NCBI RefSeq assembly: GCF_004681965.1
Contig: NZ_SMLL01000004.1
Location: forward strand, 434,001 to 498,000
Origin: Ramlibacter rhizophilus
GTDB lineage: Bacteria > Pseudomonadota > Gammaproteobacteria > Burkholderiales > Burkholderiaceae_C
Length of the DNA stretch: 64,000 nucleotides
Direction: 5' to 3'
In this document: in pieces, positions 8,008-23,842 of the stretch
How the letters are laid out: each line of letters starts with the position of its first letter
Numbering within the stretch: position 1 is the stretch's first letter
Translations under genes and position numbers: made by a program
Notes under the pieces: model-generated
Seen by the model: only the letters and a program-made list of their open reading frames with translations
Told to the model about the DNA's origin: nothing
Database searches by the model: none

Positions 8008-9231
8008 TCAGGCCTGCACGGTCGCGAACACCTCGCGAGCCTGGGTGAGCACGGCGTCGATGAACTCCGGGTCGTTGATGTGCGCCGCCACGGGGACGAG
8101 CCGGTGCGTATCGCTGGGCAGGAAGTGCGCCTCGATGGATTCGAACAGAGCCGCGTCCGCAGAAGGGTCATGGAAGGGCTGGCCGGGCGCGTCGAGGGCC
8201 GAGAGGCCGTGCAGCGGCAGCAGCAGGCGCACCGGCCCGGCCGAGCGGTTGAGGCGCTGGGCGATCTCGCGCCCGGCCGCGCGCAGTTCGGCGGCGGTGG
8301 TCCGCATGAGCGTGATGTTGGCGTTGTGGGCGTGGAAGAGGCGGCCGCGGAAACGCTCCGGAATGGTCGGTGGCGCGAACCAGTTCACCATGTCCAGGGC
8401 GCCCACGGAGCCGACCCAGGGCAGGCCCTGTTCCGCCGCGGCCATGAGCCGGCCAGGGCCGGCGTCGCAGATGCCGCCCACGAGGTGCTGGCCCACTTCG
8501 GTGGTGGTGATGTCGAGGATGCCGTCGAGCATGCCCGAGGCCGCGAGCGCTTCCATGGCGCGCCCGCCGGAGCCGTTGGCATGGAACACCTGCACGTCGA
8601 AGCCGGCCGAGAGCCCCGCGCGGACGCCCTGCACGCAGGCGGTGGTGACGCCGAACATGGTGCAGCCCAGCGCGGGCCGGGCGTCGTCCCCGCCGCCGGC
8701 CGGTGGCGGCGCGAGCACCATCCCGGCCATGGCATGGGCGGCGTTGCCCAGGACCCGGCGCGACAGGCGGTTCAGGCCGGCGATGTCGGTGACGGGAAAC
8801 ATGAGCGTCATGTCGGACACGCCGACGAAGGCGCTCACGTCGCCGGCGGCCATGGTGGACACCAGCAGCTTGGGCACGCCGATGGGCAGCAGGCGCATCG
8901 CCGGCGCCACCAGCGCGGTGCCGCCCGAGCCGCCGGCCGCGATCATGCCGGCGATGTCGCCCTTGGCCAGCGCCGCGCGCACGAGGTGGCACAGCGCCTC
9001 GCTCATGGCGCTCACCGCCACGCCGCGGTCCGTGGCGCCGGAGACGGCGGCGGGCCCGTGCGGGTGATGGCCGGCGACCGCTTCGGCGCGCAGGTCCACC
9101 TCCGCGAAACGACTGCGCGTGCCCACGTCCACCGTCGTGACCGCCACGCCGCGCGCCCGCAGCAGACCGGCCAGGTAGGCCAACTCCTCGGCCTTGGTGT
9201 CCCAGGTGCCGACGACCCAGACCGGCGACAC
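8008..9231 (-). CDS. UPF0261 / Tm-1-like N-domain protein
   Basis: 407 aa from the GTG at 9231, which overlaps the last base of the upstream TAG. The open frame continues further upstream, but that part is a shadow of the SRPBCC gene. Typical UPF0261 features are an N-terminal VWVVGTWDTKAEELAYL strand-turn-helix (nucleotide-binding-like), IAAGGSGGTALVAPAM, PKLLVSTMAAGDVSAFVG, ALGCTMFGVTTACV, and FHANGSGGRAMEAL. In plants this domain forms the N-terminal half of Tm-1, fused to a TIM barrel like the one encoded at 9700-10530. It binds ATP in Tm-1; the bacterial enzymatic role is not established. Part of the leftward operon. Confidence 0.88.
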   Translation of the reverse strand: MSPVWVVGTWDTKAEELAYLAGLLRARGVAVTTVDVGTRSRFAEVDLRAEAVAGHHPHGPAAVSGATDRGVAVSAMSEALCHLVRAALAKGDIAGMIAAGGSGGTALVAPAMRLLPIGVPKLLVSTMAAGDVSAFVGVSDMTLMFPVTDIAGLNRLSRRVLGNAAHAMAGMVLAPPPAGGGDDARPALGCTMFGVTTACVQGVRAGLSAGFDVQVFHANGSGGRAMEALAASGMLDGILDITTTEVGQHLVGGICDAGPGRLMAAAEQGLPWVGSVGALDMVNWFAPPTIPERFRGRLFHAHNANITLMRTTAAELRAAGREIAQRLNRSAGPVRLLLPLHGLSALDAPGQPFHDPSADAALFESIEAHFLPSDTHRLVPVAAHINDPEFIDAVLTQAREVFATVQA

Positions 9232-9674
9232 TAGCGCCCCGCGGCCTGCGCCTCGTCGACGCAGGCGAAGAAGGTGCGGAAGGTGGCCGCCACGCGCTCC
9301 ACGGCGGCGGCTTCCTCCTCGGGCGGCACCTCGAAGGTGGCCCACCACTCCCCGAAGCAGCGGTTGCCCTCGGTCACCGGCAGCAGGTGCATCTCGGCCA
9401 CGTAGTTCCGCCAGGGCGCATCGATGTGCAGGATGCGGTAGCGGCAGCGGTGCTCGTCATCCGACAGCGCCAGCAACTGTTCGCGCAGGTAGCCTCCGTC
9501 CTCGCGCACCTCGAAGCGGCGCACGCAGCCGACCTGGTCGGCCGGCTTGCCGTCCTCGATGAAGGAGTTGCAAAAGAACGGGTGGTAGTTGCCCAGCGCC
9601 CCGAAGTCCCGCAGGAAGGCCCAGGCCTCCTGCAGGCTCGCGTTCATCACGGCGCTCACGTACACGCGTGCCAT
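9231..9674 (-). CDS. SRPBCC (Bet v1-like) family protein
   Basis: 147 aa with the polyketide cyclase/dehydrase-like fold: MARVYVSAVMNASLQEAWAFLRDFGALGNYHPF at the N-terminus, a VGCVRRFEVREDGGYLREQLLALSDDEHRCRYRI sheet, and a long C-terminal helix (EEEAAAVERVAATFRTFFACV). The helix-grip pocket of this family binds hydrophobic ligands; some members are cyclases or aromatases. It sits between the TIM-barrel and UPF0261 genes and overlaps the latter by one base, so it is tightly coupled to that pair. Specific function unknown. Confidence 0.85.
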   Translation of the reverse strand: MARVYVSAVMNASLQEAWAFLRDFGALGNYHPFFCNSFIEDGKPADQVGCVRRFEVREDGGYLREQLLALSDDEHRCRYRILHIDAPWRNYVAEMHLLPVTEGNRCFGEWWATFEVPPEEEAAAVERVAATFRTFFACVDEAQAAGR

Positions 9675-9699
9675 CGTCTTCTCCTTGTCCTTCGCTGCT

Positions 9700-10530
9700 T
9701 CAATGTTTCAGGCTCTTGTAGCGCTTCACGTGCGCCGTGAGCGCCACCTCCGTGGGCAGCCGCTCCATGCTGCTGGCGCCGTAGAAGCCGTTGCAGTGCT
9801 CGCTGTGCGCCAGCACGTAGGCCACGTCCTCGGGCGTGGCGATGCTGCCGCCGTGCGCGATCACGATCACGTCCTTGCGCACCCGGCGCGCGGCCTCGGC
9901 CCATTCGTCGATCAGGCGCACGGACTCGGCCAGGTCCGGCGCGCTGGTGGCGCCGATGGTGCCGCCGACGGTCACGCCCATGTGCGGCACGATGAAGTCG
10001 GCACCGGCCTCGGTCATGGCCACGGCCTCGTCGGCCGAGAACACGTAGGGGGTGGTGAGCAGGTCCAGTTCATGCGCCTGGCGGATCATGTCCACCTCGG
10101 TGGCAAAGCAGATGCCGGTCTCCTCCAGGCTTTGCCGGAAGCGGCCGTCGATGATCCCGACGGTCGGGAAGTTCTGCACTCCGGAAAACCCCAGTTCCTT
10201 GAGCCGGCGCAGGAAGACCGGCATGACGATGAACGGGTCGGTGCCGTTCACACCCGCGATCACGGGCGTGTTCCGGGCCACCGGCAGGATCTCCCCGGCC
10301 ATCTCCAGCACGATCTCGTTGGCATTGCCGTAGGCCAGCAGGCCGGCGGAGGACGCCCGGCCGGCCATGCGGTAGCGCCCCGAGTTGTAGACCACGATGA
10401 GGTCGATTCCGGCCGCCTCCTCGCACTTGGCGGAGATGCCCGTGCCGGCACCACCGCCGATGATGGGCACGCGGCGCCGGACCATGTCCTGGAATTTCTC
10501 CATCAGGGGCCGACGTTCAAAAAATGGCAT
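9700..10530 (-). CDS. Phosphoenolpyruvate hydrolase-like TIM barrel (Tm-1 C-domain type)
   Basis: 276 aa from ATG 10530 with AAGGAG about 9 bp upstream; the longer in-frame extension overlaps the AraC gene and is not protein-like. The barrel pattern is clear: [91 protein letters not shown], and [20 protein letters not shown]. This is the PEP_hydrolase / IGPS-like family that is fused to UPF0261 in plant Tm-1. It is the first gene of the leftward operon and lies 19 bp from the divergent AraC gene. Confidence 0.88.
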
Positions 10531-10549
10531 GGCTTCATTGCTCCTTATG

Positions 10550-11431
10550 ATGTCCGGCGCCATGGCAACAGCGCCTCTGGATCTTTCCGTCGAAACCCAC
10601 GTGGTGAGTCCCTCGACCCGCAGCACGGTCGTGCGCGCGGAGCACTGCGAGGCACTCGCCGCGCGCCACATCGCGCACGTGGCCGTGGTGGATGCGGCCG
10701 CGCCCTACGCGGTGGTGCGCACGCACCTGTCGGGCGCGTTCTTCCAGGTCTGCCTGGCCGGCGAGGGCAAGACCCTGCTGGACGGCGCCTGGTACCCGCA
10801 CACGCCGGGCATGGCCAGCTTCTCGCCCGCGCACGTGTTGCATGCCTTCCACTGCGCGCCGCGCAAGCGCTGGCGCGTGGCCTGGGTGCGCTTCATGCCG
10901 AGCTCCCCGCGCTCCGTGCACGGCGCCATGGCGCCCAGCATGATGGCCTTCGACGGCGAGGTGCTCGCGCACGCCATCCTGGGCCTGGCCGCCGAGACGG
11001 CCGGCGCCGACGACCCGGGCAACTGCGCGGTGTGGGTGGACGTGATCGAGCGCTACACCACGCTGCTGCTCGAGCCGCTGCAGCGCCAGCCGCGCCTGGT
11101 GGCGCTGTGGAACCTGGTGGAGGCCGACCTGGCGCGCGCCTGGAGCCTGGCGGAGATGGCACGCCTGGCCAACACCAGCGAGGAGCACCTGCGGCGGCTC
11201 TGCCAGCAGAGCCTGGGCCGCAGCCCGGGGCGCCAGCTGGCCACCATGCGCATGGCCCGCGCGGCCCACCTGCTGGCGACGACCACGCTGAAGATCGAGG
11301 CCGTCGCGCAGGCGGTGGGCTACGTGAACCCCTTCGCCTTCTCCAACACGTTCAAGCGCCTGACGGGGTTCCGTCCGTCCGACTACCGCAGCCGGCCCGC
11401 CAGCGCGAAGGTGCAGTCCGAGCTTCACTGA
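10550..11431 (+). CDS. AraC family transcriptional regulator
   Basis: 293 aa from the ATG at 10550; ATGs at 10547 and 10562 are equally possible and none has a strong Shine-Dalgarno. The N-terminal half is a cupin-like arm ([34 protein letters not shown], then [26 protein letters not shown]). The C-terminus holds two helix-turn-helix units: [27 protein letters not shown] and [34 protein letters not shown]. It is divergent from the Tm-1-like operon and probably activates it. The start codons are so close that each promoter must lie inside the other gene's 5' end unless the AraC start is later. Confidence 0.9.
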
Positions 11432-12831: not shown

Positions 12832-14481
12832 TCAGCCGGCGCCGCGGATGCGATCGACCAGCGCGAGCGGGTCCTGGGGCAGGGCATCGCCGCGCCAGGC
12901 CACGTGCTGGTCGGGCCGCGACAGCACCAGGGCGCGGTCGTACAGCGCCGCCGCCTCGGGGCCATCGACGTCGAGCACCGCCATCGGCACGCCACGCCGG
13001 GCGGCGGCCTCGAGCAGGGGCGCCACGTCCAGCCCGGGGTCGCGGCGCAGCAGCGTGAACTCCGGGCCCATGGCGTCGTAGAGCGAGCGGCCGTCGGCCA
13101 GCCACAGGTGCGGCGTGCGGCAGCCCGGGACGGTAGAGGGCGTGAAGTGGTCCATGCTGTAGGCGGGCGCGGCTTCGCCGTCGTAGGCGATGAGGGGCGA
13201 GCCCTCGTAGAAGTAGCCGAAGTTCAGGCCCGCGCAGCAGTACTGCTTCACGTTCAGGTCATAGAGCGCCTTTCCGGCGCGCGCCCGCGCAGCCTCGCCT
13301 TCGGGGCCCGGCTCCTCGATGCCGGGCGGCACGCCCTCGCGCTCCTTCTGCAGGGCCAGGGCGTGGTTCATCGCGAAGCGCGAGACCTGCTCGGTGATGG
13401 GCAGGCGCTCCTGTTCGTAGGCCGCCAGCGCGGCTTTCGTGGCCCAGCCGTTCAGGTGCCCGGCCAGCAACCAGGACAGGTCCATGGCGTCGGCGATGCC
13501 CGCGTTCATGCCGTAGCCGGCCATGGGGATCCACAGGTGCGCGGCGTCGCCGCAGATGAAGACGCGCCGGTCGCGGAAGCGGTCGGCCACGAGCCGGCGG
13601 CCGACCCAGTCCTCCTTGCTGATGATCTCGTAGCGGAAGTCCGGGCCCACGCCGAGGATGGTGCGGATGGCCCAGTCGCGGTCGATGGATTCGAAGTCGG
13701 TCTCGCCCGCGCGCAGGTAGTTGTGCAGCAGGAAGGTCTCGCGTCCGTCGATCGCATACACATTGCCGCTGCGGCGCGGGTTGAGCGAGAAGGTGGCCCA
13801 GGCCGGCGCAACCCGCAGGCGCGAGAGCAGGTCCGGCGCCCGGAAGTAGGTGGACTGCACGCGCCCCACCACCTCGTCGCCGTGCAGCTTCGCACCGATG
13901 GCCTTGCGGACGCCGGAGCGGCCGCCGTCGCAGCCGATGAGAAACGCGCAGCGCAGCGCCAGGGGGGCGCCGGTCTCCAGGTCGGTCCCGGTGGCGCTCA
14001 CGCCGGCCTCGTCCTGTTCGAACGCGTCGATGCGCGTGCGGCTCAGGATGCGCACGCGGGGCTGGGCTTCGGCATGCGCGAAGAGGACGGGTTCCAGGTA
14101 GATCTGGTTGATGCGGTGCGGCGGCTCCGGCGTGGGCCACCAGCCGTCCGGGCCGCTCTTGTCGGTGTAGCGGTCGCGGCGCGCGGGAATGTGGATGCGG
14201 GAAAGCTCCTCGCCGGTGAAGGTGGTGCGGTAGGCGACATCGTTCGCGTGGTCGGCGGGCAGGCCCGCATCGCGCAGCGCGCCCGCCACGCCCAGGCGGC
14301 GGAAGATCTCCATGGTGCGCGCGGAGACGTGGTTGCACTTGACGCTCGGCGGCTCGCCGCGCTCGCGCGTTTCGGCCACGACCACGTCGATGCCGCGCCA
14401 GGCCAGGTCCATGGCCAGGGTGAGGCCGACCGGTCCGGCGCCGACGATGAGGACCTGTGTGTGAAGGGGGGAGGAGGGCAT
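12832..14481 (-). CDS. FAD-dependent aromatic monooxygenase (MhpA/PheA-like)
   Basis: 549 aa from ATG 14481, an in-frame GTG at 14514 being less likely. Class A flavoprotein monooxygenase motifs are present: VLIVGAGPVGLTLAMDLAWRG with a following Glu (ADP-binding fold), IGCDGGRSGVRKAIG (the DG motif), and GDAAHLWIPMAGYGMNAGIADAMDLSWLL (the GD motif that binds the FAD ribityl chain). The long C-terminal thioredoxin-like domain (DGRSLYDAMGPEFTLLRRDPG and beyond) matches phenol hydroxylase / MhpA relatives. Expected to hydroxylate an aromatic or polyketide substrate with NAD(P)H. Divergent from a LysR gene with 75 bp between starts. Confidence 0.9.
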   Translation of the reverse strand: MPSSPLHTQVLIVGAGPVGLTLAMDLAWRGIDVVVAETRERGEPPSVKCNHVSARTMEIFRRLGVAGALRDAGLPADHANDVAYRTTFTGEELSRIHIPARRDRYTDKSGPDGWWPTPEPPHRINQIYLEPVLFAHAEAQPRVRILSRTRIDAFEQDEAGVSATGTDLETGAPLALRCAFLIGCDGGRSGVRKAIGAKLHGDEVVGRVQSTYFRAPDLLSRLRVAPAWATFSLNPRRSGNVYAIDGRETFLLHNYLRAGETDFESIDRDWAIRTILGVGPDFRYEIISKEDWVGRRLVADRFRDRRVFICGDAAHLWIPMAGYGMNAGIADAMDLSWLLAGHLNGWATKAALAAYEQERLPITEQVSRFAMNHALALQKEREGVPPGIEEPGPEGEAARARAGKALYDLNVKQYCCAGLNFGYFYEGSPLIAYDGEAAPAYSMDHFTPSTVPGCRTPHLWLADGRSLYDAMGPEFTLLRRDPGLDVAPLLEAAARRGVPMAVLDVDGPEAAALYDRALVLSRPDQHVAWRGDALPQDPLALVDRIRGAG

Positions 14482-14545
14482 GTTGTCTCGGGGTCCAGGA
14501 AGTTCGCGCACCACGCATTAGAGGCCGTCAGGCGCCGATGGGACA

Positions 14546-14568
14546 ATGAATTCTCCATGGCAATTCAT
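14546..14568. promoter_or_regulatory. 23-bp inverted repeat over the LysR start codon
   Basis: ATGAATT and AATTCAT are perfect 7-bp arms around a 9-bp spacer that contains the ATG of the LysR gene. The repeat includes the T-N11-A pattern typical of LysR operators. It may be an autorepression site; coincidence cannot be excluded. Confidence 0.4.
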
Positions 14569-15468
14569 AAGAAACCTTTATCTGCCCTGCCTTCGGTGCG
14601 ACAGCTGCGGGCCTTCACCGCCGTGTACGAGACGGGCAGCGTCTCCGCCGCGGCCGAGCAACTGGCCCTGACGCAGCCGGCGGTGACGGTGCTGCTGCGT
14701 GAGCTGGAAGACCGGCTGGGGCTGAAGCTGTTCGACCGCAGCACGCGGGCGCTGCGCCGCACCGACGCCGCTGCCGAGGCCGTGGTCCATGCGCAGCGTG
14801 CCCTCGGGGAGCTCGAATCCATGGCCACCCGCATGGGCGAACTCGCGCAGGGCGGACGCGGCCGGGTGCGCGTCGCGGCCACGGCCACCGTGGCGCAGAC
14901 AGTTCTGCCTGCCGCACTGCGCGCGTTCCTGCAGCGGCATCCGCAGGTGAAGGTGCAGGTGGAGGAGGTTGCGCCCGACGCCTTCGTGGAGGCCCTGCTG
15001 GCCGAGCGCGTGGACTTCGGCGTGGGCACGCTGGAGGCGGCCGCGCCCGGGCTGGAGGAAGCCGTGTTCCTGCGCGACCCGCTGGTGGCCGCGGCGCAGC
15101 CCGCCATCGGCCTTCCCGTGGGCGGCTCGCTCGGCTGGCGGCGCCTCGCGCGCTTTCCGCTCATCGCCGTGAAGCCGGGCTATGGCGTGCGCCGCCGCAT
15201 CGACGAGGCCGCCGCCGCGGCCGGCGTGAGCCTGCCCATCGAGCACGAGGTGTCGCTGCTCACCACGGCTCTCGCGATGGCGCAGGCCGGGCTGGGCGCG
15301 GCCCTGGTGCCGGCCTCGCTCGCGCGGCACCAGGCAGGCGCGGGGCTGGTCACGTGCCGGCTGGTGCGCCCCGCAGTGGAGCGGCCCATGGCCATCGTCA
15401 CGCGGCGCGGGCGCTCCCTGTCGCCGGCGGCGCAGGCGCTGGCGGATACGGTGGCAGCGGGAGCCTAG
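14557..15468 (+). CDS. LysR family transcriptional regulator
   Basis: 303 aa from ATG 14557; the frame is open for 1.8 kb upstream but that is the shadow of the monooxygenase. The N-terminal winged helix is LPSVRQLRAFTAVYETGSVSAAAEQLALTQPAVTVLLRELEDRLGLKLFDRSTRALRRT. The effector domain starts near GRVRVAATATVAQTVLPAAL and includes VPASLARHQAGAGLVTC. It is divergent from the FAD monooxygenase gene and is its probable regulator. A 23-bp palindrome covers its own start codon, so it may be autoregulated. Confidence 0.92.
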   Translation: MAIHKKPLSALPSVRQLRAFTAVYETGSVSAAAEQLALTQPAVTVLLRELEDRLGLKLFDRSTRALRRTDAAAEAVVHAQRALGELESMATRMGELAQGGRGRVRVAATATVAQTVLPAALRAFLQRHPQVKVQVEEVAPDAFVEALLAERVDFGVGTLEAAAPGLEEAVFLRDPLVAAAQPAIGLPVGGSLGWRRLARFPLIAVKPGYGVRRRIDEAAAAAGVSLPIEHEVSLLTTALAMAQAGLGAALVPASLARHQAGAGLVTCRLVRPAVERPMAIVTRRGRSLSPAAQALADTVAAGA

Positions 15469-15487
15469 GAAGTAGCGGGACAGGACA

Positions 15488-16210
15488 CTAGCTGCGCTTG
15501 ATCCCCGCCCGCCGCAGCATCGCCTCGAAGATCACGCGGTGCACCTCGCCCTTGCCGGCCACGCGCGAGGCCGGCACGCGCTCCAGGATCTCGCGGGCGA
15601 TCGGACGGTTGGGACCCTGGCCGGCGTCGGACGCGAGCTGGATCTCGCAGGCACGCTGCATCACCCACAGGCGGTTGAAGGCGGTGGGGATGTCGGGCCC
15701 GACGGCCAGCAGGCCGTGGTTGCGCAGGACCAGGTGGTTCTTCGTGCCGAGCGAGGCCACCAGCCGCGGTTGCTCGTCCTCGCTGGTGGTGACGCCCTCG
15801 TAGTCGTGATAGGCCACGTCGCCATACAGCATGGCGCTGTAGAAGTTGTCGTGGCGCAGGCCCTCTTCCTTGCACGCGACCGCGCATCCCGCCGTGGAGT
15901 GGATGTGCATGATGCAGTGCGCGTCCTCGCGCGCGCCGTGGATGGCGCTGTGGATCACGAAGCCGGCGCGGTTGACGGGCGCCGCCGAGCCGTCGGTGAC
16001 CTCGCCGTCGATGGCGATGCGCACCAGGTTGTCGGGCGTGGTTTCGGCGTAGTGCAGGCCGAAGCGGTTGATCAGGTACTCGGGGCGGGCGGTGTCGGCG
16101 GGCGGCACGCGCACGGTGATGTGGTTGAAGATCAGCTCGGTCCAGCCGAGCCAGTCGAAGAGGCGATAGCAGGCCGCCAGGTCGGCCCGCAGCTGCGATT
16201 CGCTCTGCAT
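15488..16210 (-). CDS. Class II aldolase/adducin family protein, probable dihydroxy-carboxylate decarboxylase or aldolase
   Basis: 240 aa from ATG 16210, one base after the stop of the 59-aa ORF. Zinc ligands of class II aldolases are visible: HCIMHIHSTAG (H-x-H) and LVLRNHGLLAVG (third His); the helix QRACEIQLA follows. Besides sugar aldolases this family includes decarboxylases of aromatic pathways, such as 3,4-dihydroxyphthalate decarboxylase (PhtC type). As the last gene of a Rieske dioxygenase operon with a dihydrodiol dehydrogenase, decarboxylation of a catechol carboxylate is the most economical role. That is inference from context. Confidence 0.88.
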   Translation of the reverse strand: MQSESQLRADLAACYRLFDWLGWTELIFNHITVRVPPADTARPEYLINRFGLHYAETTPDNLVRIAIDGEVTDGSAAPVNRAGFVIHSAIHGAREDAHCIMHIHSTAGCAVACKEEGLRHDNFYSAMLYGDVAYHDYEGVTTSEDEQPRLVASLGTKNHLVLRNHGLLAVGPDIPTAFNRLWVMQRACEIQLASDAGQGPNRPIAREILERVPASRVAGKGEVHRVIFEAMLRRAGIKRS

Positions 16211-16211
16211 G

Positions 16212-16391
16212 TCAGGACGGCTCGGTTTCGGCCAGGCCGGCGATGTCCTCGCAGAAGACCAAATCCTCGCTGCCGTCGGCAAAGCGGGCGTTCAGCCAGA
16301 TGCCGTCGCCGATGTTCTGGATCACCTCGGCCGTGGTGCCGTTCTTCAGCCGGACGACCTGTCCGGGCTCGATCGCAAGCAGGTTGAGCAT
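16212..16391 (-). CDS. 59-aa conserved-looking small protein in the dioxygenase operon
   Basis: A short ORF between the dioxygenase beta subunit and the aldolase gene. The start ATG at 16391 has AAGGAG 6 bases upstream, and the stop lies one base before the aldolase ATG, so the spacing is that of a real operon gene. It begins MLNLLAIEPGQVVRLKNGTT, continues with AEVIQNIGDGIWLNARFADG and ends in ETEPS. Alternating beta strands with VVRLKNG and WLNARF suggest a small SH3-like barrel. It has two acidic clusters and one Cys. No family is recognised. It may be an accessory or assembly factor of the oxygenase. Confidence 0.75.
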   Translation of the reverse strand: MLNLLAIEPGQVVRLKNGTTAEVIQNIGDGIWLNARFADGSEDLVFCEDIAGLAETEPS

Positions 16392-16403: not shown

Positions 16404-16985
16404 CTAGAAAAAGATCGTGAGGTTCTTGGCCAGCAGCACGTTCTGGTGGATGCGGATCTCGCGCTGCGCGAGCTTCCAGCCTCCGGCCGTGCGGCGGATG
16501 CGGTCGAATCGGTCGCCGACGAAGAAGTACTCCTCGTACTCGCAGCGGTTCTGGTAGATCAGGAACCGGCTGGTCACATCGACTTCCAGCTCGCCTGCGG
16601 CGTTGGTCTCCATGGCCTTGAGCTGCACGTTGCTCACCATGCGGCACACGCGCGACAGCGGCTCCTCGGCCCAGTGCACGCCGGTGAGGATCTGCTCGAC
16701 GCGCTTGCCCAGGGACCACTTGCCTTCGTTGAACCAGCTCATGTGCTGGTCGCGGCGCGTGAGCTCGCGGGCGGCGTGCTCGCCGTACTTCACGTTGTAT
16801 TCCATGGGCATGAAGTAGCGCAGGTCCTCGGCGAGGGTCTGCAGCCACTCCTGGAAGCGGCGCTCGTCCAGCAGGTTGGCTTCGTCGTAGAGGAATTCCT
16901 CGATCTCGCACTTGACCTCGTAGTAGTGCGCGTCGCGCGCCAGGCGCGGCGCGGCGGCCTGGGGGGTCTCGATGGTGTCTTGCAT
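16404..16985 (-). CDS. Aromatic-ring-hydroxylating dioxygenase, beta subunit
   Basis: 193 aa, the usual size. The cone-shaped beta-subunit fold (ring_hydroxyl_B) is shown by VKCEIEEFLYDEANLLDERRFQEWLQTLAEDLRYFMPMEYN, the SNVQLKAMETNAAGELEVDVTSRFLIYQNRCEYEEYFFVGDR stretch, and the C-terminal WKLAQREIRIHQNVLLAKNLTIFF. It is the structural partner of the alpha subunit encoded at 17806-19173. Unusually, a dehydrogenase gene separates the alpha and beta genes. The 59-aa ORF follows after 12 bases. Confidence 0.95.
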   Translation of the reverse strand: MQDTIETPQAAAPRLARDAHYYEVKCEIEEFLYDEANLLDERRFQEWLQTLAEDLRYFMPMEYNVKYGEHAARELTRRDQHMSWFNEGKWSLGKRVEQILTGVHWAEEPLSRVCRMVSNVQLKAMETNAAGELEVDVTSRFLIYQNRCEYEEYFFVGDRFDRIRRTAGGWKLAQREIRIHQNVLLAKNLTIFF

Positions 16986-17012: not shown

Positions 17013-17801
17013 TCAGGGCTTGGGCGGCACGGGGCCGCCCTGGTGCGCGAAGCAGCCCACGTCGATCACGGTGCCCGAGATCGTGGCCGCCTCGTCGGAC
17101 AGCAGGAAGGCGACCGCGTGGGCGAGGTCGCGCCCGGTGGCGGGGCGGCCGGCGGCGGTGCCCGGCGCGGGCTTGCGCGTGAAGGCGCCCACGTCGCCGC
17201 CGAAGCGGCCCACGCTCATGCCCGAGACGATGCCCCCGCCGCCCGGGATGGCCACGTTGACGCGCACGCGGTCGTGGAAGTGGTCGTAGGCCATGGCCAT
17301 GCTCAGGGCCACGATGGCGCCCTTGCTGGCCGCGTAGGCCGCCATGTTGGGCTTGCCGTAGCCGGCGCCCGAGCCGATGTTGACGATGGCGCCGCCGCCG
17401 GCGCGGATCATGTGCGGCAGCACGGCGCGGCTCATGAGGTACGTGCCCTTGACGTTCACGTCCAGGATCTTCTCGAACACCGGCTCCTCGGTCGTGAGCA
17501 CGGTGCCCAGGGGACCGATGGCGGCGTTGTTCACCAGGCCATGGACGGCGCCGTAGCGGGCGGTGGCGTGGTCCACCACGCGCTGCACGTCGGCGGCGCT
17601 GGAGACGTCGGCCTCCAGGATGTCGGCGCGCAGGCCGGCCTGCTCCAGTTCCTCGCGGACGCCCTCCAGGCCCTCGGCCGTGCTGGAGACCTGCGGCTGC
17701 GCGAGGCCGAAGGCCACCACCTGGTGGCCGCGCCGCGCGAGTTCGACGGTGATGGACTGGCCGAGCCCGAAGGTTCCGCCGGTGACGATGACGACGGCCA
17801 T
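17013..17801 (-). CDS. SDR family oxidoreductase, probable cis-dihydrodiol dehydrogenase
   Basis: 262 aa, classical short-chain dehydrogenase. The cofactor motif is VTGGTFGLGQ near residue 6, NNAAIGP marks strand 4, and the catalytic set is NIGSGAGYG (Ser) with YAASK (Tyr, Lys). The Phe-Gly after strand 2 (VVAFGLAQPQV) does not settle NAD versus NADP. It starts 5 bases after the dioxygenase alpha stop. By analogy with BenD, it most likely rearomatises the cis-dihydrodiol produced by the dioxygenase, giving a catechol-type product. Confidence 0.88.
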   Translation of the reverse strand: MAVVIVTGGTFGLGQSITVELARRGHQVVAFGLAQPQVSSTAEGLEGVREELEQAGLRADILEADVSSAADVQRVVDHATARYGAVHGLVNNAAIGPLGTVLTTEEPVFEKILDVNVKGTYLMSRAVLPHMIRAGGGAIVNIGSGAGYGKPNMAAYAASKGAIVALSMAMAYDHFHDRVRVNVAIPGGGGIVSGMSVGRFGGDVGAFTRKPAPGTAAGRPATGRDLAHAVAFLLSDEAATISGTVIDVGCFAHQGGPVPPKP

Positions 17802-17805
17802 GCGC

Positions 17806-19173
17806 TTACTCGGCGAAGCTCGCCGGCTCCTTGTCCTTGCGGCCCAGGAGCGTGTCCCAGTCGGCGCCGTTCATGTAGTCGCGCCAGCGGCGATAGAACT
17901 GGCGCGGGTTTTCCTCGCTCACCTGCAGGCTCACGTGGCCGGGTACCGGCGCGTCGGTGGCCACCTTGCCCAGCGACTGCTGGTAGTTGAAGGGGTAGCG
18001 CCGCGCGATCACCCCGCGGCTGCCGGCGGTGGCGTAGTTCCAGTTCTCCATGTCGTCCTGCTCGGTCATGCCGGCCGGACCGGAGTAGCGCATGTAGTAG
18101 ATGCGCAGGAAGTCCTTGACCTCCTGCGGTGCGTCCGCGTCCACGAGGAAGAAGCGCCAGGCCTCCGTGGACTCGGGCCCGTGCGGGTGCCACACGCACA
18201 GGTTGCGCGGCTGGTTGCCGTGGAAGGACACGTTGGGGAAGATGGTGCCCACGAAGGGAATGAGCCGGTGGCGCTCGGCGCCCAGGCGCTCCTTGCGCTT
18301 GGCGTGGGCCTCGCGGAAGTACTCGGCCACCACCGGGTTGCCCTGGTAGGTGTTCAGGAACTCCCAGTCGGGCGGCATGATGGCGCTGTGCACGCCGTGG
18401 CCCGCCGGGAAGTTGGCCCAGACGTGCTGCGCCTTGTCCATCTCGTTGTCGCGGCGCCCCTTGACGCCCGCCTCGGCGCTGGGGCCGATGCCGATCAGGT
18501 CCACCGAGCGATGGCTCACGTTGTGATAGGTGTCGCCCAGGAAGTTCTCGGCGGCGAACTTCCAGTTGCACGGGATGATCCACTTGTGCACGCCGACCAG
18601 CACCTCGGAGCCGCCCTCGCGCCCGTCGCGGCAGTCCAGGGCCAGGTCCAGGTGGAGCCTGGCGTCGCCCAGGTAGGTGAGCAGGTCCGGCGCGTCCTTG
18701 TCCCAGCTGGCCCACACCGTGCCCTTGTACACCTCCACCTTGGGGGGCTCGATCAGCGACCACTCCTCCTTGTCCATGCAGCCTTCATAGAGCTGCTTGA
18801 ACTGCGGCACGCCGAAGAGCTTGCCGTCGGTGGTGTAGCTCCAGCTGTGGTACGGGCAGGTGAACAGCTGGGTGTTGCCATGGTCGTACTGGCAGACCTT
18901 CATGCCGCGGTGGCGGCAGGAATTCAGGAACACGTGCACCTTGCGCTTCTTGTCGCGCGCGAGGATCACCGACTCGGCGCCCATGCGCGAGGTGAAGAAG
19001 TCGCCCGGGTTGGGCACCTGGCTCTCGTGGCCGACGAAGAGCCAGGCCCGGGTGAAGACCTGCTCCAGCTCCTCCTGGAAGATGTCCTTGTCGGAAAAGA
19101 TCTCGCGGCTGATCTTGCCTTCGCGCAGCTTGACCAGGGCGTTGTAGCGTGATTCGTGGGTGATCGGGATCAT
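17806..19173 (-). CDS. Rieske aromatic-ring-hydroxylating dioxygenase, alpha subunit
   Basis: 455 aa from ATG 19173 (GAGACACGC upstream); a much longer open frame upstream is only the shadow of the reductase gene. The Rieske [2Fe-2S] ligands are C86-x-H88 and C106-x2-H109 (CRHRG ... CPYHSW, 17 residues between). The mononuclear iron site is ENFLGDTYHNVSH: bridging D214, H217 and H221, so the two His are three residues apart rather than the four seen in naphthalene or benzoate dioxygenase. It forms the oxygenase with the beta subunit and takes electrons from the adjacent reductase. The substrate is probably an aromatic acid. The shorter His spacing deserves a check against homologues. Confidence 0.95.
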   Translation of the reverse strand: MIPITHESRYNALVKLREGKISREIFSDKDIFQEELEQVFTRAWLFVGHESQVPNPGDFFTSRMGAESVILARDKKRKVHVFLNSCRHRGMKVCQYDHGNTQLFTCPYHSWSYTTDGKLFGVPQFKQLYEGCMDKEEWSLIEPPKVEVYKGTVWASWDKDAPDLLTYLGDARLHLDLALDCRDGREGGSEVLVGVHKWIIPCNWKFAAENFLGDTYHNVSHRSVDLIGIGPSAEAGVKGRRDNEMDKAQHVWANFPAGHGVHSAIMPPDWEFLNTYQGNPVVAEYFREAHAKRKERLGAERHRLIPFVGTIFPNVSFHGNQPRNLCVWHPHGPESTEAWRFFLVDADAPQEVKDFLRIYYMRYSGPAGMTEQDDMENWNYATAGSRGVIARRYPFNYQQSLGKVATDAPVPGHVSLQVSEENPRQFYRRWRDYMNGADWDTLLGRKDKEPASFAE

Positions 19174-19199: not shown

Positions 19200-20198
19200 T
19201 CAGGCGAAGCGTTCGCACAGGACGTCCGCGCGGCGGATGCCGGCGGCCTCGGCGGCATGGCGTCCGGCCTCGACCATGGGCGGCGGGCCGCACAGGTACA
19301 CGCGGGTGCTGGGGTCCAGGCCGAGGGTGGGGATCAGGTCGGTCGGGTAGCCGCTGTGGCAACCCGCCTGCGCATCGTGCTCGACCGCGATGCGCAGGTC
19401 CACGCCCTGGAGCTGCCCGCGCAGCTGCTCGATCTCGTCGAGTGCGAAGAGGTGGCCGGGCGTGCGCGCGCCGAACACCAGCGTGGTCGGCTGCGGGGGA
19501 GGGTGGCCGACCATGGAGCGCAGCATGGACAGGAAGGGCGCCACGCCCGTGCCACCGGCCACGAAGAGGCGGGGGCGGTCCTCGTCGCGCAGGAAGAAGG
19601 TGCCGTGCGGTGCGCTGAGCGTGAGCCGGTCGCCGGGCTTCGCGCCGGCCAGCCACTCGGAGAACGCACCCCCCGGCACCTGGCGGATGAAGAACTGCAG
19701 GCGCTCGGTGCCCGGCACGTTGGCCATGGAATAGGAGCGGTGAAAGTCGGCCCCGGCCGGCGTGATGCGCACGTACTGGCCGGGCTCGAACACCACCGGC
19801 TGCGCGACCTGCACCTCCAGGCGCCAGGTTTCGCTGGCAATGGCATCGATGGCCGTGACCTCGGCCGGGATCGGTTCCGGCTCCTCGTCCAGCGCCTCGC
19901 TGGAGTCGTAGGGCAGCTCGATGGCGCAGGCACTGCTCACGCGGCACACGCAGGGCAGCACGGTGCCGTCGGCGCGGTCTTCGTCCGGCAGCACGGCGGG
20001 GTCGTAGTCGTCCAGGTCCACGCTGCCCGAGACGAGCTGCGCCGTGCAGGTGCCGCACTGGCCGTTGGAACAATCGGTCAGCAGGTTGAGGCCGCTCTCG
20101 ATGGCGGCTTCGATCAGCTTGCCGCCCTGGGGCACGGCGATGCGCCGGGATACGCCGTCGGCGAACAGCAGGGTGACGGGGATCACGGGATGACTCAC
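19200..20198 (-). CDS. Ferredoxin-reductase component of the dioxygenase (BenC-like)
   Basis: 332 aa from the GTG at 20198, preceded by GGAGG at a good distance. Three domains in order: plant-type [2Fe-2S] ferredoxin (C43, C48, C51, C83 in DCSNGQCGTC ... LPCVC), FAD domain (RSYSMAN) and NAD domain (GGTGVAPFLSML, CGPPPM). A single-chain ferredoxin-reductase defines a two-component class IB system like benzoate dioxygenase, so no separate ferredoxin is needed. It is the first gene of the operon, 26 bp before alpha. Promoter candidate at 20241-20270. Confidence 0.93.
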   Translation of the reverse strand: MSHPVIPVTLLFADGVSRRIAVPQGGKLIEAAIESGLNLLTDCSNGQCGTCTAQLVSGSVDLDDYDPAVLPDEDRADGTVLPCVCRVSSACAIELPYDSSEALDEEPEPIPAEVTAIDAIASETWRLEVQVAQPVVFEPGQYVRITPAGADFHRSYSMANVPGTERLQFFIRQVPGGAFSEWLAGAKPGDRLTLSAPHGTFFLRDEDRPRLFVAGGTGVAPFLSMLRSMVGHPPPQPTTLVFGARTPGHLFALDEIEQLRGQLQGVDLRIAVEHDAQAGCHSGYPTDLIPTLGLDPSTRVYLCGPPPMVEAGRHAAEAAGIRRADVLCERFA

Positions 20199-20214
20199 TC
20201 TGAACCTCCGATGG

Positions 20215-20231
20215 AGTCCGTACATCGGACA
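20215..20231. promoter_or_regulatory. Candidate IclR operator 1 (downstream of the dioxygenase promoter)
   Basis: AGTCCGTACATCGGACA, arms GTCCG/CGGAC. It has the same 17-bp layout as operators 2-4 and lies 9 bases past the predicted -10 of the dioxygenase operon, near +1. Confidence 0.55.
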
Positions 20232-20240
20232 ATGGGTCTC

Positions 20241-20270
20241 ATTCTATGGACATCCAGGAATTCGAGTCAA
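20241..20270 (-). promoter_or_regulatory. Predicted sigma70-type promoter of the dioxygenase operon
   Basis: On the minus strand, TTGACT at 20270-20265 and TAGAAT at 20246-20241 are separated by 18 bp. The promoter lies between two 17-bp palindromes (20215-20231 and 20273-20289). Transcription would start near 20234, giving a short leader before the reductase GTG. Confidence 0.5.
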
Positions 20271-20272
20271 CG

Positions 20273-20289
20273 TGTCCGCAGGGCGGACA
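20273..20289. promoter_or_regulatory. Candidate IclR operator 2 (perfect palindrome)
   Basis: TGTCCGCAGGGCGGACA: perfect 7-bp arms around AGG, 2 bp upstream of the predicted -35 of the dioxygenase promoter and 31 bp before the IclR GTG start. It could serve both divergent genes. Confidence 0.65.
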
Positions 20290-20320
20290 TAATCGCCCGC
20301 ATCCGAGGAAGGGGATTGTC

Positions 20321-21088
20321 GTGAACACCGTCGAAAAGAGCGAGAACGTCCGCGCCGTGGGCCGGGCGCTGGAGATCCTGACCGCCTTCACCGAGGACGA
20401 CCCGGAGCTGTCCGCCGGCGAGCTTCTCAAGCGCGTGGACCTGTCCCGGCCCACGCTGTACCGCCTGCTGTACACCCTGCAGGAGCACGGCTTCCTGGTC
20501 TCGGTGGGGGAGCCGCAGCGCTTCCGGCTCGGGCCGTCGGTGGCGCGCCTGGCGCATGTCTGGAAGTCCACGCTGGACCTCAGCACCCTGGCCGAGCCGG
20601 TGCTGCGCCGCATCTGGGAGGAGACGCGCGAGACCGTGGCCCTGGTGGTGCCGCAGGGGCACATGCGCCTGTGCGTGGCCGAGCTGCCCAGCCCGCAGCC
20701 GCTGAACTTCAAGCGGGGCGTGGGCTACACCGAGCGCCTGGTGCTGGGCGCGACGGGCCGCGCGATCCTGGCCTGGCTGGAGCCGGACGCCGCGCAGCTG
20801 CGCGAGTACCTGCAGGGCACGCAGGTGGACCTGAAGGAATTGGAGGCCGAACTGGCCATGACCCGCAAGCGTGGCTGGGCGGTGAGCCGCAACGAGCTGA
20901 TCGCCGGTGCCGTCGCCGTCGCGGCGCCGTTCTTCGACCGGCACTCGCAGGTGGCGGGCTCGATCGGGGTCTTCGGGCCGGAAGTGCGGATGGACGCGGC
21001 GCGCCAGAAGGAGGTCGCCCATCTCCTCGTGCAGGAGGCCGCCCGCCTGTCCGAAGCCATGGGCTTCGGCACGGACCGGCTGAAGTAG
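20321..21088 (+). CDS. IclR family transcriptional regulator of the dioxygenase/decarboxylase locus
   Basis: 255 aa from the GTG at 20321, with GGAAGGGG upstream; an upstream in-frame ATG would place a palindromic operator inside the gene and lacks a ribosome site. The N-terminal winged helix is VRAVGRALEILTAFTEDDPELSAGELLKRVDLSRPTLYRLLYTLQEHGFL; the effector domain has the IclR GYTERLVLGATGRAILAWL pattern and the C-terminal AVAVAAPFFDRHSQVAGSIGVFGP. It sits between the dioxygenase operon and the Bug-decarboxylase pair, each of whose promoters is bracketed by 17-bp palindromes, so it probably controls both and itself. Confidence 0.93.
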   Translation: MNTVEKSENVRAVGRALEILTAFTEDDPELSAGELLKRVDLSRPTLYRLLYTLQEHGFLVSVGEPQRFRLGPSVARLAHVWKSTLDLSTLAEPVLRRIWEETRETVALVVPQGHMRLCVAELPSPQPLNFKRGVGYTERLVLGATGRAILAWLEPDAAQLREYLQGTQVDLKELEAELAMTRKRGWAVSRNELIAGAVAVAAPFFDRHSQVAGSIGVFGPEVRMDAARQKEVAHLLVQEAARLSEAMGFGTDRLK

Positions 21089-21096
21089 CCCTACGG

Positions 21097-21113
21097 TGTC
21101 CGCAGAGCGGACG
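21097..21113. promoter_or_regulatory. Candidate IclR operator 3
   Basis: TGTCCGCAGAGCGGACG matches operator 2 at 15 of 17 positions. It lies just after the IclR stop and 14 bp upstream of the TTGACA of the next promoter. Confidence 0.6.
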
Positions 21114-21127
21114 CGGGTTTCCGTGCG

Positions 21128-21156
21128 TTGACAGGAACACGGCGGGGGTAAAAAAT
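21128..21156 (+). promoter_or_regulatory. Predicted promoter of the Bug-decarboxylase pair
   Basis: A consensus TTGACA at 21128-21133 is followed by an A-rich -10 region; AAAAAT at 21151-21156 gives 17-bp spacing, TAAAAA at 21149 gives 15. It is bracketed by operators 3 and 4. Confidence 0.45.
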
Positions 21157-21164
21157 GGACTCGT

Positions 21165-21181
21165 TATCCGCTGTATGGACA
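21165..21181. promoter_or_regulatory. Candidate IclR operator 4 (degenerate)
   Basis: TATCCGCTGTATGGACA agrees with operator 2 at 12 of 17 positions, keeping the outer half-sites. It sits 8 bases past the predicted -10, as operator 1 does for the other promoter. It also forms part of a CCGCTGT/ACAGCGG inverted repeat ending at 21187. Confidence 0.4.
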
Positions 21182-21224
21182 CAGCGGGTGCGCCCCTTCG
21201 AACACGTCATCCCAGGAGACCTCC

Positions 21225-22232
21225 ATGACCCGTCAACCCCGTTTCGCGCGTCGCGTGCTGCTGCGCTCGCTGCCGGCCGTGGCTGCCCTCGCGCTCGGCG
21301 CGGTGGCGCTGCACGCGCCCCAGGCCGCCGCGCAGGCCTACCCCGAGAAGCCGGTGAAGATCGTCGTGGGCTTCCCGCCCGGCGGTACCAACGACATCCT
21401 GGCCCGGCTGATGGCCGAGCAGCTGCAGGCCAAGCTGGGGCAGGCCTTCGTGGTGGAGAACAAGCCCGGGGCGGCCTCCGCCATCGGCAATGACCTGGTC
21501 GCCAAGGCACAGCCGGACGGCTACACCCTGCTGGTGTCCTCCAGCGGCGGCCTGACCACCAACCCGGTGCTGATGAAGAACCTGCCCTACAACCCGGAGA
21601 AGGACTTCGAGCCCATCGCCCTGCTGGCCACCTTCCCGCTGGTGGTGACGGTGCCGGCCTCGCTGCCCGTCAAGAATTTCAAGGAGCTGGTGCAGTTCTC
21701 CAAGACCCACAAGGACGGCCGCCTGGACCACGGCACGCCCACCACCTCCTTCGTGCTGGTGGCCGAGACCCTCACCGAAGCGGCCGGCGTGCGCTTCAAC
21801 CACGTGCAGTACAAGGGCTCCGGTCCCACGGTGATGGGCCTGCTGGGCGGGGAGACGCAGGTGGCCGTGCTGGACAGCCCCGCCGTCATCCCGCAGATCC
21901 AGGCCGGCAAGCTCAAGGCGCTGGCGGTGACCACCGCCAAGCGTTCGTCCGCGCTGCCCGATGTGCCGACCGTGGCCGAGGCCGGCTATGCGGGCTACGA
22001 CATCCCGATCTGGACGGCGCTCATGGCGCCCAAGGGCACGCCCGAGCCGGTGCTGACCAAGCTGCGCACCGCCGTGCGCGACATCCTGGACGACAAGGAC
22101 ACGGTCGCGAAGATGCACAAGCTGGGCCTGGAGCCGGGCGACACCGACTCGGCCGCACTGGCCAAGCGCATCTCCGACGACATCGCCCGCTGGAAGCGCG
22201 TGGCCAAGCAGGCCAACATCCAGCCGCAGTGA
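21225..22232 (+). CDS. Bug/TctC-family periplasmic receptor
   Basis: 335 aa, ATG preceded by AGGAGACCTCC. Signal peptide with an Arg pair (RRVLLRSLPAVAALALGAVAL, cleavage after AAAQA). Bug hallmarks are YPEKPVKIVVGFPPGGTNDILAR, ENKPGAASAIGNDLV, and LTEAAGVRFNHVQYKGSG. It is the first gene of a two-gene unit with the benzoylformate decarboxylase-like gene, which starts at or just after its stop codon. The ligand is therefore probably an aromatic oxo-acid or the dioxygenase substrate. No membrane partner genes are nearby. Confidence 0.93.
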   Translation: MTRQPRFARRVLLRSLPAVAALALGAVALHAPQAAAQAYPEKPVKIVVGFPPGGTNDILARLMAEQLQAKLGQAFVVENKPGAASAIGNDLVAKAQPDGYTLLVSSSGGLTTNPVLMKNLPYNPEKDFEPIALLATFPLVVTVPASLPVKNFKELVQFSKTHKDGRLDHGTPTTSFVLVAETLTEAAGVRFNHVQYKGSGPTVMGLLGGETQVAVLDSPAVIPQIQAGKLKALAVTTAKRSSALPDVPTVAEAGYAGYDIPIWTALMAPKGTPEPVLTKLRTAVRDILDDKDTVAKMHKLGLEPGDTDSAALAKRISDDIARWKRVAKQANIQPQ

Positions 22233-22249
22233 CGCCGGGACCCACGGCG

Positions 22250-23842
22250 ATGCGCGCCCCCTCGCGCTGCGCGACGGTGCGCGAGGCCTTCTACGCGCTC
22301 ATGCGTGAGCGCGGCAGCCGCGTGATCTTCGGCAACCCCGGCTCCACCGAGCTGCCGATGTTCCGCGGCTTCCCCGCGGACATGGACTACGTGCTGGGCC
22401 TGCAGGAGGCCTGCGTGGTCGGCATGGCCGACGGCTACGCGCAGGCCACGGGCCGCGCCGCCTTCGTGAACCTGCATTCGGCCGCCGGCGTGGGCAACGC
22501 CATGGGCGCGATCTACACCGCGTTCAAGAACCAGACGCCGATGGTCATTGTGGCGGGGCAGCAGTACCGCGCGCTGCAGCCCTTCGACCCCTATCTGTTC
22601 TCGCGCCAGGTCACGGACCTGCCGCGGCCCTACGTCAAGTCCTGCATCGAACCCGCGCGGGCCGAGGACGTGCCGCTGGCCATCGCCCGGGCCTGGCAGA
22701 CCGCCATGCAGCATCCCCGCGGCCCGGCCATGGTGTCGGTGCCCGCCGACGACTGGGAGCGGCCCTGCGCACCGCTGCCACCGCAGGCCGCGTTCCAGGC
22801 CCTGCGGCCCGATCCGGCCGGCATCGAGGCGCTGCGGCGCGCCATCGGCCAGAGCGAACGGATCGCGCTGGTCGTGGGCGCGGCCGTCGATCGCGACGGC
22901 GCCTGGGACCAGGTCGTGCAACTCGCGCAGGCCTGCCAGGCGCGCGTCTTCGCGGCGCCGCTGTCGGCGCGCGCCGGTTTCCCCGAGGACCATCCGCTGT
23001 TCCAGGGCTTCCTGCCCGGCGCGGGCGCGCAGATCCACGAGCGCCTCGCCGGCAGCGACCTGGTGCTGGTGGTCGGGGCGCCGGCTTTCACCTACCACGT
23101 GCCGCGGGGCGAGGCGGCCTCGCACCTGCCGCAGGGCGCCCGGCTCGCGGTGCTCACCGACGACCCGGAGGTCGCGGCCATGGTGCCGGAGGGCTTGAGC
23201 GTGCTGGGCGGCATCCGGCTCGGCCTCGACGAACTGCTGAAGGACCTGCCCGCGCGGCATCGCACGCCGCCACCGCCTCGGGGCCGGCCTGCACCCGCGT
23301 CGCCCGGCACGCCGCTGTCAACGGCCTACGTGCTGCAGACCCTGGCCGCCTTGCGCGGCCCCACGGACATCGTGGTGGAGGAAGCGCCGAGCGCCCGGCC
23401 CTGGATGCAGCAGGTCCTGCCCATGACGCAGCCGGCGAGCTTCTACACCATGGCCAGCGGCGGCCTGGGCTTCGGCATGCCGGCGGCCGTGGGCATCGCC
23501 TATGCGCACCGCGACCGCCGCGTGATCGCGGTGATCGGCGACGGCTCCAGCATGTACAGCATCCAGAGCCTGTGGACCGCCGCGCAGCACGGGCTGCCCA
23601 TCACCTTCATCGTCCTCAACAACGGGGGCTATGCGGCGATGAAGCGGCACGCGGGGCTGCTCGGGTTCGAAGCGGGCGAGAAGATCGTGGGCATCGACGT
23701 GCCAGGCATCCGCTTCGACCAGCTCGCGACCGCGCAGGGCTGCGCCGCGTTCCGGGTCACCGAAGCCGAGGCGCTTGCCGCCAGGCTGGAGGCGGCACTG
23801 CGCAGCACCGGGCCGAGCCTGGTGGAAGTCGAGGTCGGCTAG
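22250..23842 (+). CDS. mdlC: Benzoylformate decarboxylase-like TPP enzyme
   Basis: 530 aa from ATG 22250; a GTG at 22229 overlapping the Bug stop (GTGA) is the alternative start. It follows the Pseudomonas putida benzoylformate decarboxylase pattern closely: S32 in GNPGSTELP, E53 in LQEACVVGMADGYAQA, H76 in NLHSAAGVGNAMG and H283 in FTYH, equivalent to S26, E47, H70 and H281 there. The TPP/Mg motif is GDGSSMYS at 430. These active-site His residues separate it from acetolactate synthases. Expected reaction: benzoylformate or a substituted aryl glyoxylate to the aldehyde plus CO2. No mandelate dehydrogenase or benzaldehyde dehydrogenase is nearby. Confidence 0.85.
   Translation: MRAPSRCATVREAFYALMRERGSRVIFGNPGSTELPMFRGFPADMDYVLGLQEACVVGMADGYAQATGRAAFVNLHSAAGVGNAMGAIYTAFKNQTPMVIVAGQQYRALQPFDPYLFSRQVTDLPRPYVKSCIEPARAEDVPLAIARAWQTAMQHPRGPAMVSVPADDWERPCAPLPPQAAFQALRPDPAGIEALRRAIGQSERIALVVGAAVDRDGAWDQVVQLAQACQARVFAAPLSARAGFPEDHPLFQGFLPGAGAQIHERLAGSDLVLVVGAPAFTYHVPRGEAASHLPQGARLAVLTDDPEVAAMVPEGLSVLGGIRLGLDELLKDLPARHRTPPPPRGRPAPASPGTPLSTAYVLQTLAALRGPTDIVVEEAPSARPWMQQVLPMTQPASFYTMASGGLGFGMPAAVGIAYAHRDRRVIAVIGDGSSMYSIQSLWTAAQHGLPITFIVLNNGGYAAMKRHAGLLGFEAGEKIVGIDVPGIRFDQLATAQGCAAFRVTEAEALAARLEAALRSTGPSLVEVEVG

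Follow-up and report, generated by a model that had tools for sequence, protein, structure and literature searches.

Mirrored triplets of candidate IclR operators at two promoters flanking an iclR gene in Ramlibacter rhizophilus

The operators of IclR-family regulators include a class with the layout TGT-11-ACA and the consensus TGTYCRY-W3-RYGRACA, and in those parts of the survey by Suvorova and Gelfand (2021, PMC8222616) that are available to us, tandem sites lie 18-22 bp apart. The same parts describe proteins of the family as repressing, activating, or doing both. TphR, which like the protein studied here is an IclR regulator encoded beside a Rieske dioxygenase, in the terephthalate (tph) operon, is called an activator in the accessible portion of PMC12577307, and PcaR of Pseudomonas putida is said, in the title of Guo and Houghton (1999), to activate and repress through -35 and -10 elements. 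PheR of Sphingobium sp. SHPJ-2 is likewise an IclR-family regulator of a dioxygenase operon, as far as the available text of PMC13273656 goes. Both the motif class and the 18-22-bp tandems are already published, in the part of PMC8222616 that we cite.

In this study we analysed a stretch of 64,000 nucleotides of Ramlibacter rhizophilus DNA (the window), in which an iclR gene stands between the promoter of a ring-hydroxylating dioxygenase operon and that of a gene for a TctC-family solute-binding protein (SBP). The locus can be regarded as a natural experiment on what decides between repression and activation in the IclR family, with one regulator, two promoters, three operators at each, and the upstream operator moved by about one helical turn. 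Predicted control of the regulator's own gene and of adjacent operons is a trait that the locus has in common with the systems described in the available part of PMC8222616.

Sites, promoters and genes of the locus

A consensus scan of 20150-21260 found exactly two promoter-like sites, both of sigma-70 type, against a shuffle mean of 0.0. One is TTGACT-18-TAGAAT on the minus strand (20270-20241), at the dioxygenase genes, and the other TTGACA-17-AAAAAT on the plus strand (21128-21156), at the SBP gene. The initial annotation of this DNA had reported four IclR-type 17-mers, beginning at 20215, 20273, 21097 and 21165, as two pairs that bracket the promoters. All four are present as written and all fit the TGT-11-ACA class as it is given in the available text of PMC8222616. 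The centre distances of 58 and 68 bp take the same value when measured from start to start, and each promoter does have one site upstream of its -35 and another past its -10, at 9 and 8 bases where 8-9 had been given. The positions of the pairs are right; the conserved unit, however, is a triplet, in which a degenerate site (O2) that had been overlooked lies over each -10, between the upstream site (O1) and the downstream site (O3) (Table 1). The SBP-side copy of O2 is better kept in relatives than in the window.

Predicted transcription starts at 20234 and 21163 put the centre of O2 at -10 and the centres of O3 at +12 and +11. In the window the dioxygenase-side O1 lies 2 bp upstream of the -35 box and 31 bp before the iclR start, and the W3 core of both O1 sites is GC-rich (AGG and AGA). 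Rfam gave no match at gathering scores within 19900-21500.

Table 1. Sites, promoter elements and genes around the iclR gene (window positions)
Feature	Position	Strand	Sequence or form	Remark
O3, dioxygenase promoter	20215..20231		AGTCCGTACATCGGACA	9/10 core bases; predicted +4 to +20
O2, dioxygenase promoter	20236..20252		TGTCCATAGAATGAGAC on minus strand	degenerate, 6/10 core bases; centre on -10
-10, dioxygenase promoter	20241..20246	minus	TAGAAT	consensus scan
-35, dioxygenase promoter	20265..20270	minus	TTGACT	18-bp spacer; consensus scan
O1, dioxygenase promoter	20273..20289		TGTCCGCAGGGCGGACA	perfect palindrome; predicted centre -47
O1, SBP promoter	21097..21113		TGTCCGCAGAGCGGACG	predicted centre -58
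-35, SBP promoter	21128..21133	plus	TTGACA	consensus scan
O2, SBP promoter	21145..21161		right half GGACT alone remains	worn, 5/10 core bases
-10, SBP promoter	21151..21156	plus	AAAAAT	most relatives TAAAAT
O3, SBP promoter	21165..21181		TATCCGCTGTATGGACA	predicted +3 to +19
Dioxygenase beta subunit	16404..16985	minus		passes PRK10069 subfamily cut-off, fails HcaF equivalog
Short-chain dehydrogenase	17013..17801	minus		
Rieske ring-hydroxylating dioxygenase alpha subunit	17806..19173	minus		
BenC-like ferredoxin reductase	19200..20198	minus		GTG start picked from position after GGAGG
IclR-family regulator	20321..21088	plus		255 aa, GTG start; PF09339 54.2 bits, PF01614 94.1 bits
TctC-family solute-binding protein (SBP)	21225..22232	plus		PF03401 245 bits
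Benzoylformate decarboxylase	22229..23842	plus		overlaps SBP stop; NF005485 724 bits, cut-off 493

An IclR gene had been placed between both targets, and the matches of its product to PF09339 and PF01614 are both above the Pfam cut-offs (22 bits for HTH_IclR and 24 bits for IclR_C). The protein reaches no NCBIfam equivalog cut-off, and with the PcaR/PcaU/PobR subfamily (TIGR02431) it scores 110.9 bits, the cut-off being 284.75. The dioxygenase alpha subunit is nearest to the biphenyl, benzene and HcaE enzymes, with 341.6 bits to biphenyl dioxygenase versus 75.8 to the terephthalate enzyme (TphA2). As regards its substrate, the alpha subunit falls below every NCBIfam equivalog cut-off among its six matches, its best plasmid copy (82.7%) bears a generic name, only generic names occur among the 120 listed of 2810 homologues, and a targeted literature search returned no match.

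Several neighbouring genes were also noted. Among L040-L056 a benzoylformate decarboxylase gene lies 3' of the SBP gene in L040 alone, so the regulon may have gained the window's copy locally. On the far side of the dioxygenase genes, around window 12832-15887, there is a flavin monooxygenase gene on the minus strand (PF01494), together with a LysR gene at 14557-15468 (plus) and a class II aldolase-family gene at 15488-16282 (minus), relatives of the aldolase being present in several related clusters. Further away, a second gene for a TctC-family SBP (5967-6956) has close to it two adjoining minus-strand genes (8008-10671), the products of which are a UPF0261 protein (PF06792/PF23189) and a protein resembling PEP hydrolase (PF09370).

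Conservation and placement of the sites

IclR relatives were drawn from a set of genomes and, as the best 80 among the matches listed, from named contigs, with L029=L041, L030=L047, L010=L042, L011=L044 and L012=L058 as duplicates. In a tree of 82 proteins the window protein, L009 and L040-L057 form one clade (support 98/97). Nineteen loci, namely the window, L009 and L040-L056, were tabulated; L057 and L069 stand outside this table, and L054, which is inside it but fails there, was scored by scan and by eye. The reductase, alpha subunit, iclR and SBP genes have the same order in 17 of 17 loci (L040-L056), and the dehydrogenase and beta subunit genes are found in 16 of these, L042 ending at a contig edge.

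The palindromes that the initial annotation had seen at both promoters are conserved in the relatives. The dioxygenase-side cassette occurs in 18 of the 19 tabulated loci, or in all 19 when the split L054 is added, with O1 and O2 separated by 37 bp in 17 loci and by 38 bp in L056, and O2 and O3 by 20 bp in 16 loci and 21 bp in two. In 17 of the 19, 2 bp separate O1 from the -35 box and the promoter spacer measures 18 bp (5 and 16 bp in L056), the promoter boxes in the table being those chosen as best matches in range. Here O1 keeps 9-10 and O3 8-10 of the 10 core bases, and O2 keeps 5-8 in all 18 loci that have it. While the O1-O2 distance stays rigid, that from O1 to the iclR start varies from 45 to 63 bp among the tabulated loci. 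At the SBP promoter O2 and O3 are 20 bp apart in the same 18 loci, O1 is present in 16 of 19 counting L054, and O1 and O2 are 48-50 bp apart in 15 of 19; in the 17 relatives O2 retains 7-9 of its 10 core bases there, and in the window it retains 5, figures to be read with the fact that the SBP-side O2 match was counted in the score, which, like the choice of the boxes, favours the model. SBP-side O3 has 6-9 of 10 core bases (6-7 in L048, L050, L052, L053 and L055). Given these degenerate bases, binding at O2 and O3 may be weak. Of the sites in L040-L056 that keep at least 9 of 10 bases, 56 are close to iclR, either in the 200 bp before it or in the 300 bp after it, and 14 are elsewhere in about 230 kb, four of these being the L054 sites. 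L057, inside the clade with 67% identity, has no recognisable cassette in 330 bp, and L069 (73% identity, its gene carrying a stop) has one site. The L069 sequence comes from a Rhodoferax MAG, with no dioxygenase genes in the stretch covered.

Three SBP promoters are without O1, those of L045, L051 and L056, and their -10 boxes are TATAAT, TATAAT and TATACT; SBP promoters with O1 have TAAAAT (TAAGAT in L042, AAAAAT in the window). It is as if O1 compensated for a weaker core promoter on the SBP side. The three loci form one clade, however (support 99/91), so the -10 trend counts as one event, and the loss of O1 together with a stronger -10 was accordingly downgraded as support for activation. 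There is also a counter-example, the dioxygenase promoters of L044, L046 and L047 having both O1 and TATAAT.

A separate observation concerns a second inverted repeat, TTGAC-N4-RTCA, the left half of which is the -35 box, in 13 of 18 SBP promoters (L009, L040-L053, L055, L056 and the window). It is lost in the window (21128-21141). We take this repeat to resemble FNR-type boxes. An FNR-type global regulon was considered, and none was apparent: in four genomes the strict form TTTGAC-N3-RATCAA occurred 0-2 times each, and this SBP promoter accounts for two of the five matches.

Variovorax gossypii (L054) provides a natural REARRANGEMENT, its cluster having come apart so that some 3 kb, with a LysR gene, separate the dioxygenase genes from iclR. 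By scan and printed sequence, the relocated dioxygenase promoter has the layout O3-20-O2-37-O1 (O2 7/10 by eye) and the relocated SBP promoter O1-48-O2-20-O3 (O3 7/10 by eye), and iclR retains an O1 identical to the dioxygenase O1 over a 19-bp exact match. From this split layout it follows that each cassette travels with its promoter, and that iclR and the dioxygenase promoter have each retained an O1. The 2.9-kb stretch with the LysR gene (L054:4020-6960) is flanked by a 19-bp exact direct repeat, which is O1 itself.

The number of matches to the motif is by contrast at chance level. With up to two mismatches TGTCCG-N5-CGGACA has 5 matches in the 64 kb versus 5.16 expected, and it is their placement that is unusual, four of the five sitting in two intergenic gaps of together about 258 bp. 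Shuffling gave a probability of about 0.0004 for a match of at least 8 of 10 bases at any one set position. The genome-wide search that had been proposed gave 11 places with up to one mismatch in 4.59 Mb, three of them at the locus, and hence not hundreds of unrelated places; the pattern read backwards gave 28, and the motif is without genome-wide enrichment. As the count is at chance, it was dropped as evidence for both window and genome, and the case for the sites rests on their conservation in relatives and not on their number. Among the other eight genome matches, C6:263997 lies about 107 bp from the match end of an IclR paralogue with 60% identity to the window protein (G000:C6:263159-263890); a plus-strand ORF, when taken in its longest form, overlaps this site as well. 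C1:347175 has a further IclR gene on one side and a MaoC-like gene on the other. Of the remainder, four overlap predicted ORFs and two are intergenic, one beside an MdoG gene and one between a sulfatase-modifying-type gene and a DctQ gene.

Outside the tabulated set, 44 of the 63 other named loci (L057-L119) have an upstream site scoring at least 15, or 34 after dereplication, none of which was used in building the matrix. When partner positions in these 34 are measured from the best upstream site, a step of 20 bp in the direction away from iclR stands out most (z 6.9 compared with the other offsets), although just three loci reach a per-locus score of 4 and the 20-bp partner is thus mostly degenerate. 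The best site contains a -10 (at least 5 of 6 bases) with TTGAC 16-18 bp upstream in 7 of the 34. O1-like spacings (46-50 or 67 bp) occur in eight other loci, five of them near-identical (L083, L085, L086, L088, L090, L100, L109 and L119), and most of the 34 have no O1. The C6 paralogue, too, has a site like those of the window on either side, at C6:263997 and at C6:263110 (L127, G000:C6:261795-264013). The second of these lies over TTGACC-18-TAGAAT in a promoter that precedes a LigXa-like Rieske gene, and it has a degenerate partner at a distance of 20 bp. The offset in the 34 loci and the sites of the paralogue together indicate that the O2-O3 core is shared beyond the clade.

Helical phase and the reading of the sites

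It had been proposed at the outset that the two layouts lie one helical turn apart, as expected for looping by one regulator. The first half of this proposal agrees with our results, O1 and O2 being 37 bp apart at one promoter and 48-50 bp at the other, a difference of about one turn, but the looping does not. At 10.5 bp per turn O1 is about 3.5 turns (37 bp) and 4.6 turns (48 bp) from O2, and, at 57-58 and 68-70 bp, about 5.5 and 6.5 turns from O3. Such half-integral turns put O1 facing away from O2 and O3, loops of less than 70 bp would be stiff, and neither promoter has the near-integral, same-face spacing of a looping pair; looping as the cause of the spacing was therefore set aside. The orientation of O1 speaks against simple bridging and suggests that the site is positioned relative to the polymerase. 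What both promoters do have is a fixed site just upstream of the -35 box, as an upstream activator would need, with predicted positions of -47 and -58. MhpR has its site at -58.

We infer, with a probability of roughly 0.6, that the sites are two copies of one cassette conserved in relatives, and that the IclR protein controls the dioxygenase and the predicted uptake operons together, activating at O1 and repressing at O2 and O3. In the absence of an effector it is the O2-O3 tandem that the protein would occupy, thereby blocking polymerase at both promoters. With the effector, which is probably an aromatic acid, it would aid polymerase from O1, lying against sigma at -47 in the dioxygenase promoter and standing at -58 in the uptake promoter, positions about one helical turn apart that would present the same face to the polymerase. 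Bound at the O1 next to the iclR start, the protein would in addition be able to hold down its own production.

The protein could instead be a pure repressor, an explanation that we regard as unlikely though worth serious attention, in which all three sites are held in a shut complex, O1 is an auxiliary site bridged to O2 and O3 by DNA bending, and the effector releases the whole. PheR-type IclR repressors cover the -10 and the start (available text of PMC13273656), the O1 spacing is rigid as a bridge requires, and, in the available parts of PMC8222616, binding as tetramers is described for the family, together with a slight excess of spacings near three and four turns. Those survey spacings are integral, however, unlike the ones here, where O1 is on the opposite face from O2 at both promoters, and loops below 70 bp would be costly. 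If O1 served iclR self-control only, with O2 and O3 alone running the dioxygenase and SBP promoters, then the identical O1 that stands alone before iclR in L054 would be accounted for, as would the want of O1 in most of the 34 other relatives and the three SBP promoters that manage without it. This is very improbable when it is considered that the L054 dioxygenase promoter, 3 kb away, has an O1 of its own, that the SBP promoter, with no divergent gene, still has O1 in 16 of 19 loci, and that O1 is held at a rigid distance from O2 while its distance from iclR drifts.

The operators could also be real and yet have another IclR protein of the cell, such as the C6 paralogue, as their main or joint reader. 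In this paralogue the segment LSRPTLYRLL of the helix-turn-helix region is identical to that of the window protein, and same-type sites lie around its own gene, one of them over a promoter with a degenerate partner. The cassettes, however, accompany the gene cluster of the regulator studied here in relatives, and the usual range of an IclR protein is its own gene plus one or two operons next to it (PMC8222616, in the part available), which makes this improbable. That the palindromes are chance products of GC-rich DNA, without function, would agree with a window count equal to expectation and with a genome that has fewer matches than the backwards control; the way in which they are placed at two promoters, with fixed distances and in 18 relatives, leaves this idea hardly credible.

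Taking the activating and repressing role of the IclR protein as a starting point, a wider proposal can be made, tentatively and at somewhat less than even odds. The cassette may be portable, with a -10 at the heart of O2, a second dimer at O3 one tandem step downstream and an activating O1 dimer at -47 or -58, one helical turn apart, such that one IclR protein would be both off- and on-switch for two promoters flanking its own gene. Paralogues with the same recognition segment may use the same core in the same genome, in which case operators would be contested between their regulons. The natural experiment is extended by relatives in which one O1 is missing or whole cassettes have moved; the exact bases to change can be named, and the predictions are clear. 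The locus also supplies, for an aromatic pathway, a candidate sensor together with the promoter that matches it.

Comparison with described systems

Of the described operators, that of PobR from Acinetobacter baylyi, also an IclR-family protein, is TTGTCCGATSATCGGACAR and has the same TGTCCG/CGGACA half-sites over 17 bp as the window sites, according to the available part of PMC8222616. The regulon differs by name, being that of 4-hydroxybenzoate. In the same source IphR of Comamonas sp. E6 (isophthalate) has the site GTCTCATCAGAC with a downstream half-site ATGGAC. The plus strand of the window's O2, GTCTCATTCTATGGACA, resembles these IphR sequences, a resemblance only. The TphR operator, TTTTTGCGCATAGCGCAAAAA in the accessible text of PMC8222616, differs from the window palindrome, and the combination of such an operator with a terephthalate-type dioxygenase was not found at the locus. 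The window protein is also unlike PcaR, lying far below the PcaR/PcaU/PobR cut-off. The PheR footprint, from -21 to +23, is close to the predicted extent of the O2-O3 block (-18 to +19/+20), whereas PheR has the minimal motif GCAACG and, in the part of PMC13273656 available, is described as a repressor only, with no upstream O1 in the description.

The 20-21 bp between O2 and O3, at each promoter in 18 of 19 loci, fits the IclR tandem range of 18-22 bp in the available part of PMC8222616, one member of each pair being degenerate in the window. No such layout as the one reported here is described in the accessible portions of PMC6449761 or PMC11237407. The mirrored triplet, the -10 inside the palindrome and the one-turn shift of O1 were not found in the literature searched, the scope of which took in few subscription papers; the variant itself is well supported. 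What the locus adds to the systems described in the available part of PMC8222616 is therefore a third site at half-integral phase, a -10 box inside the palindrome, and two mirrored cassettes around the gene of the regulator.
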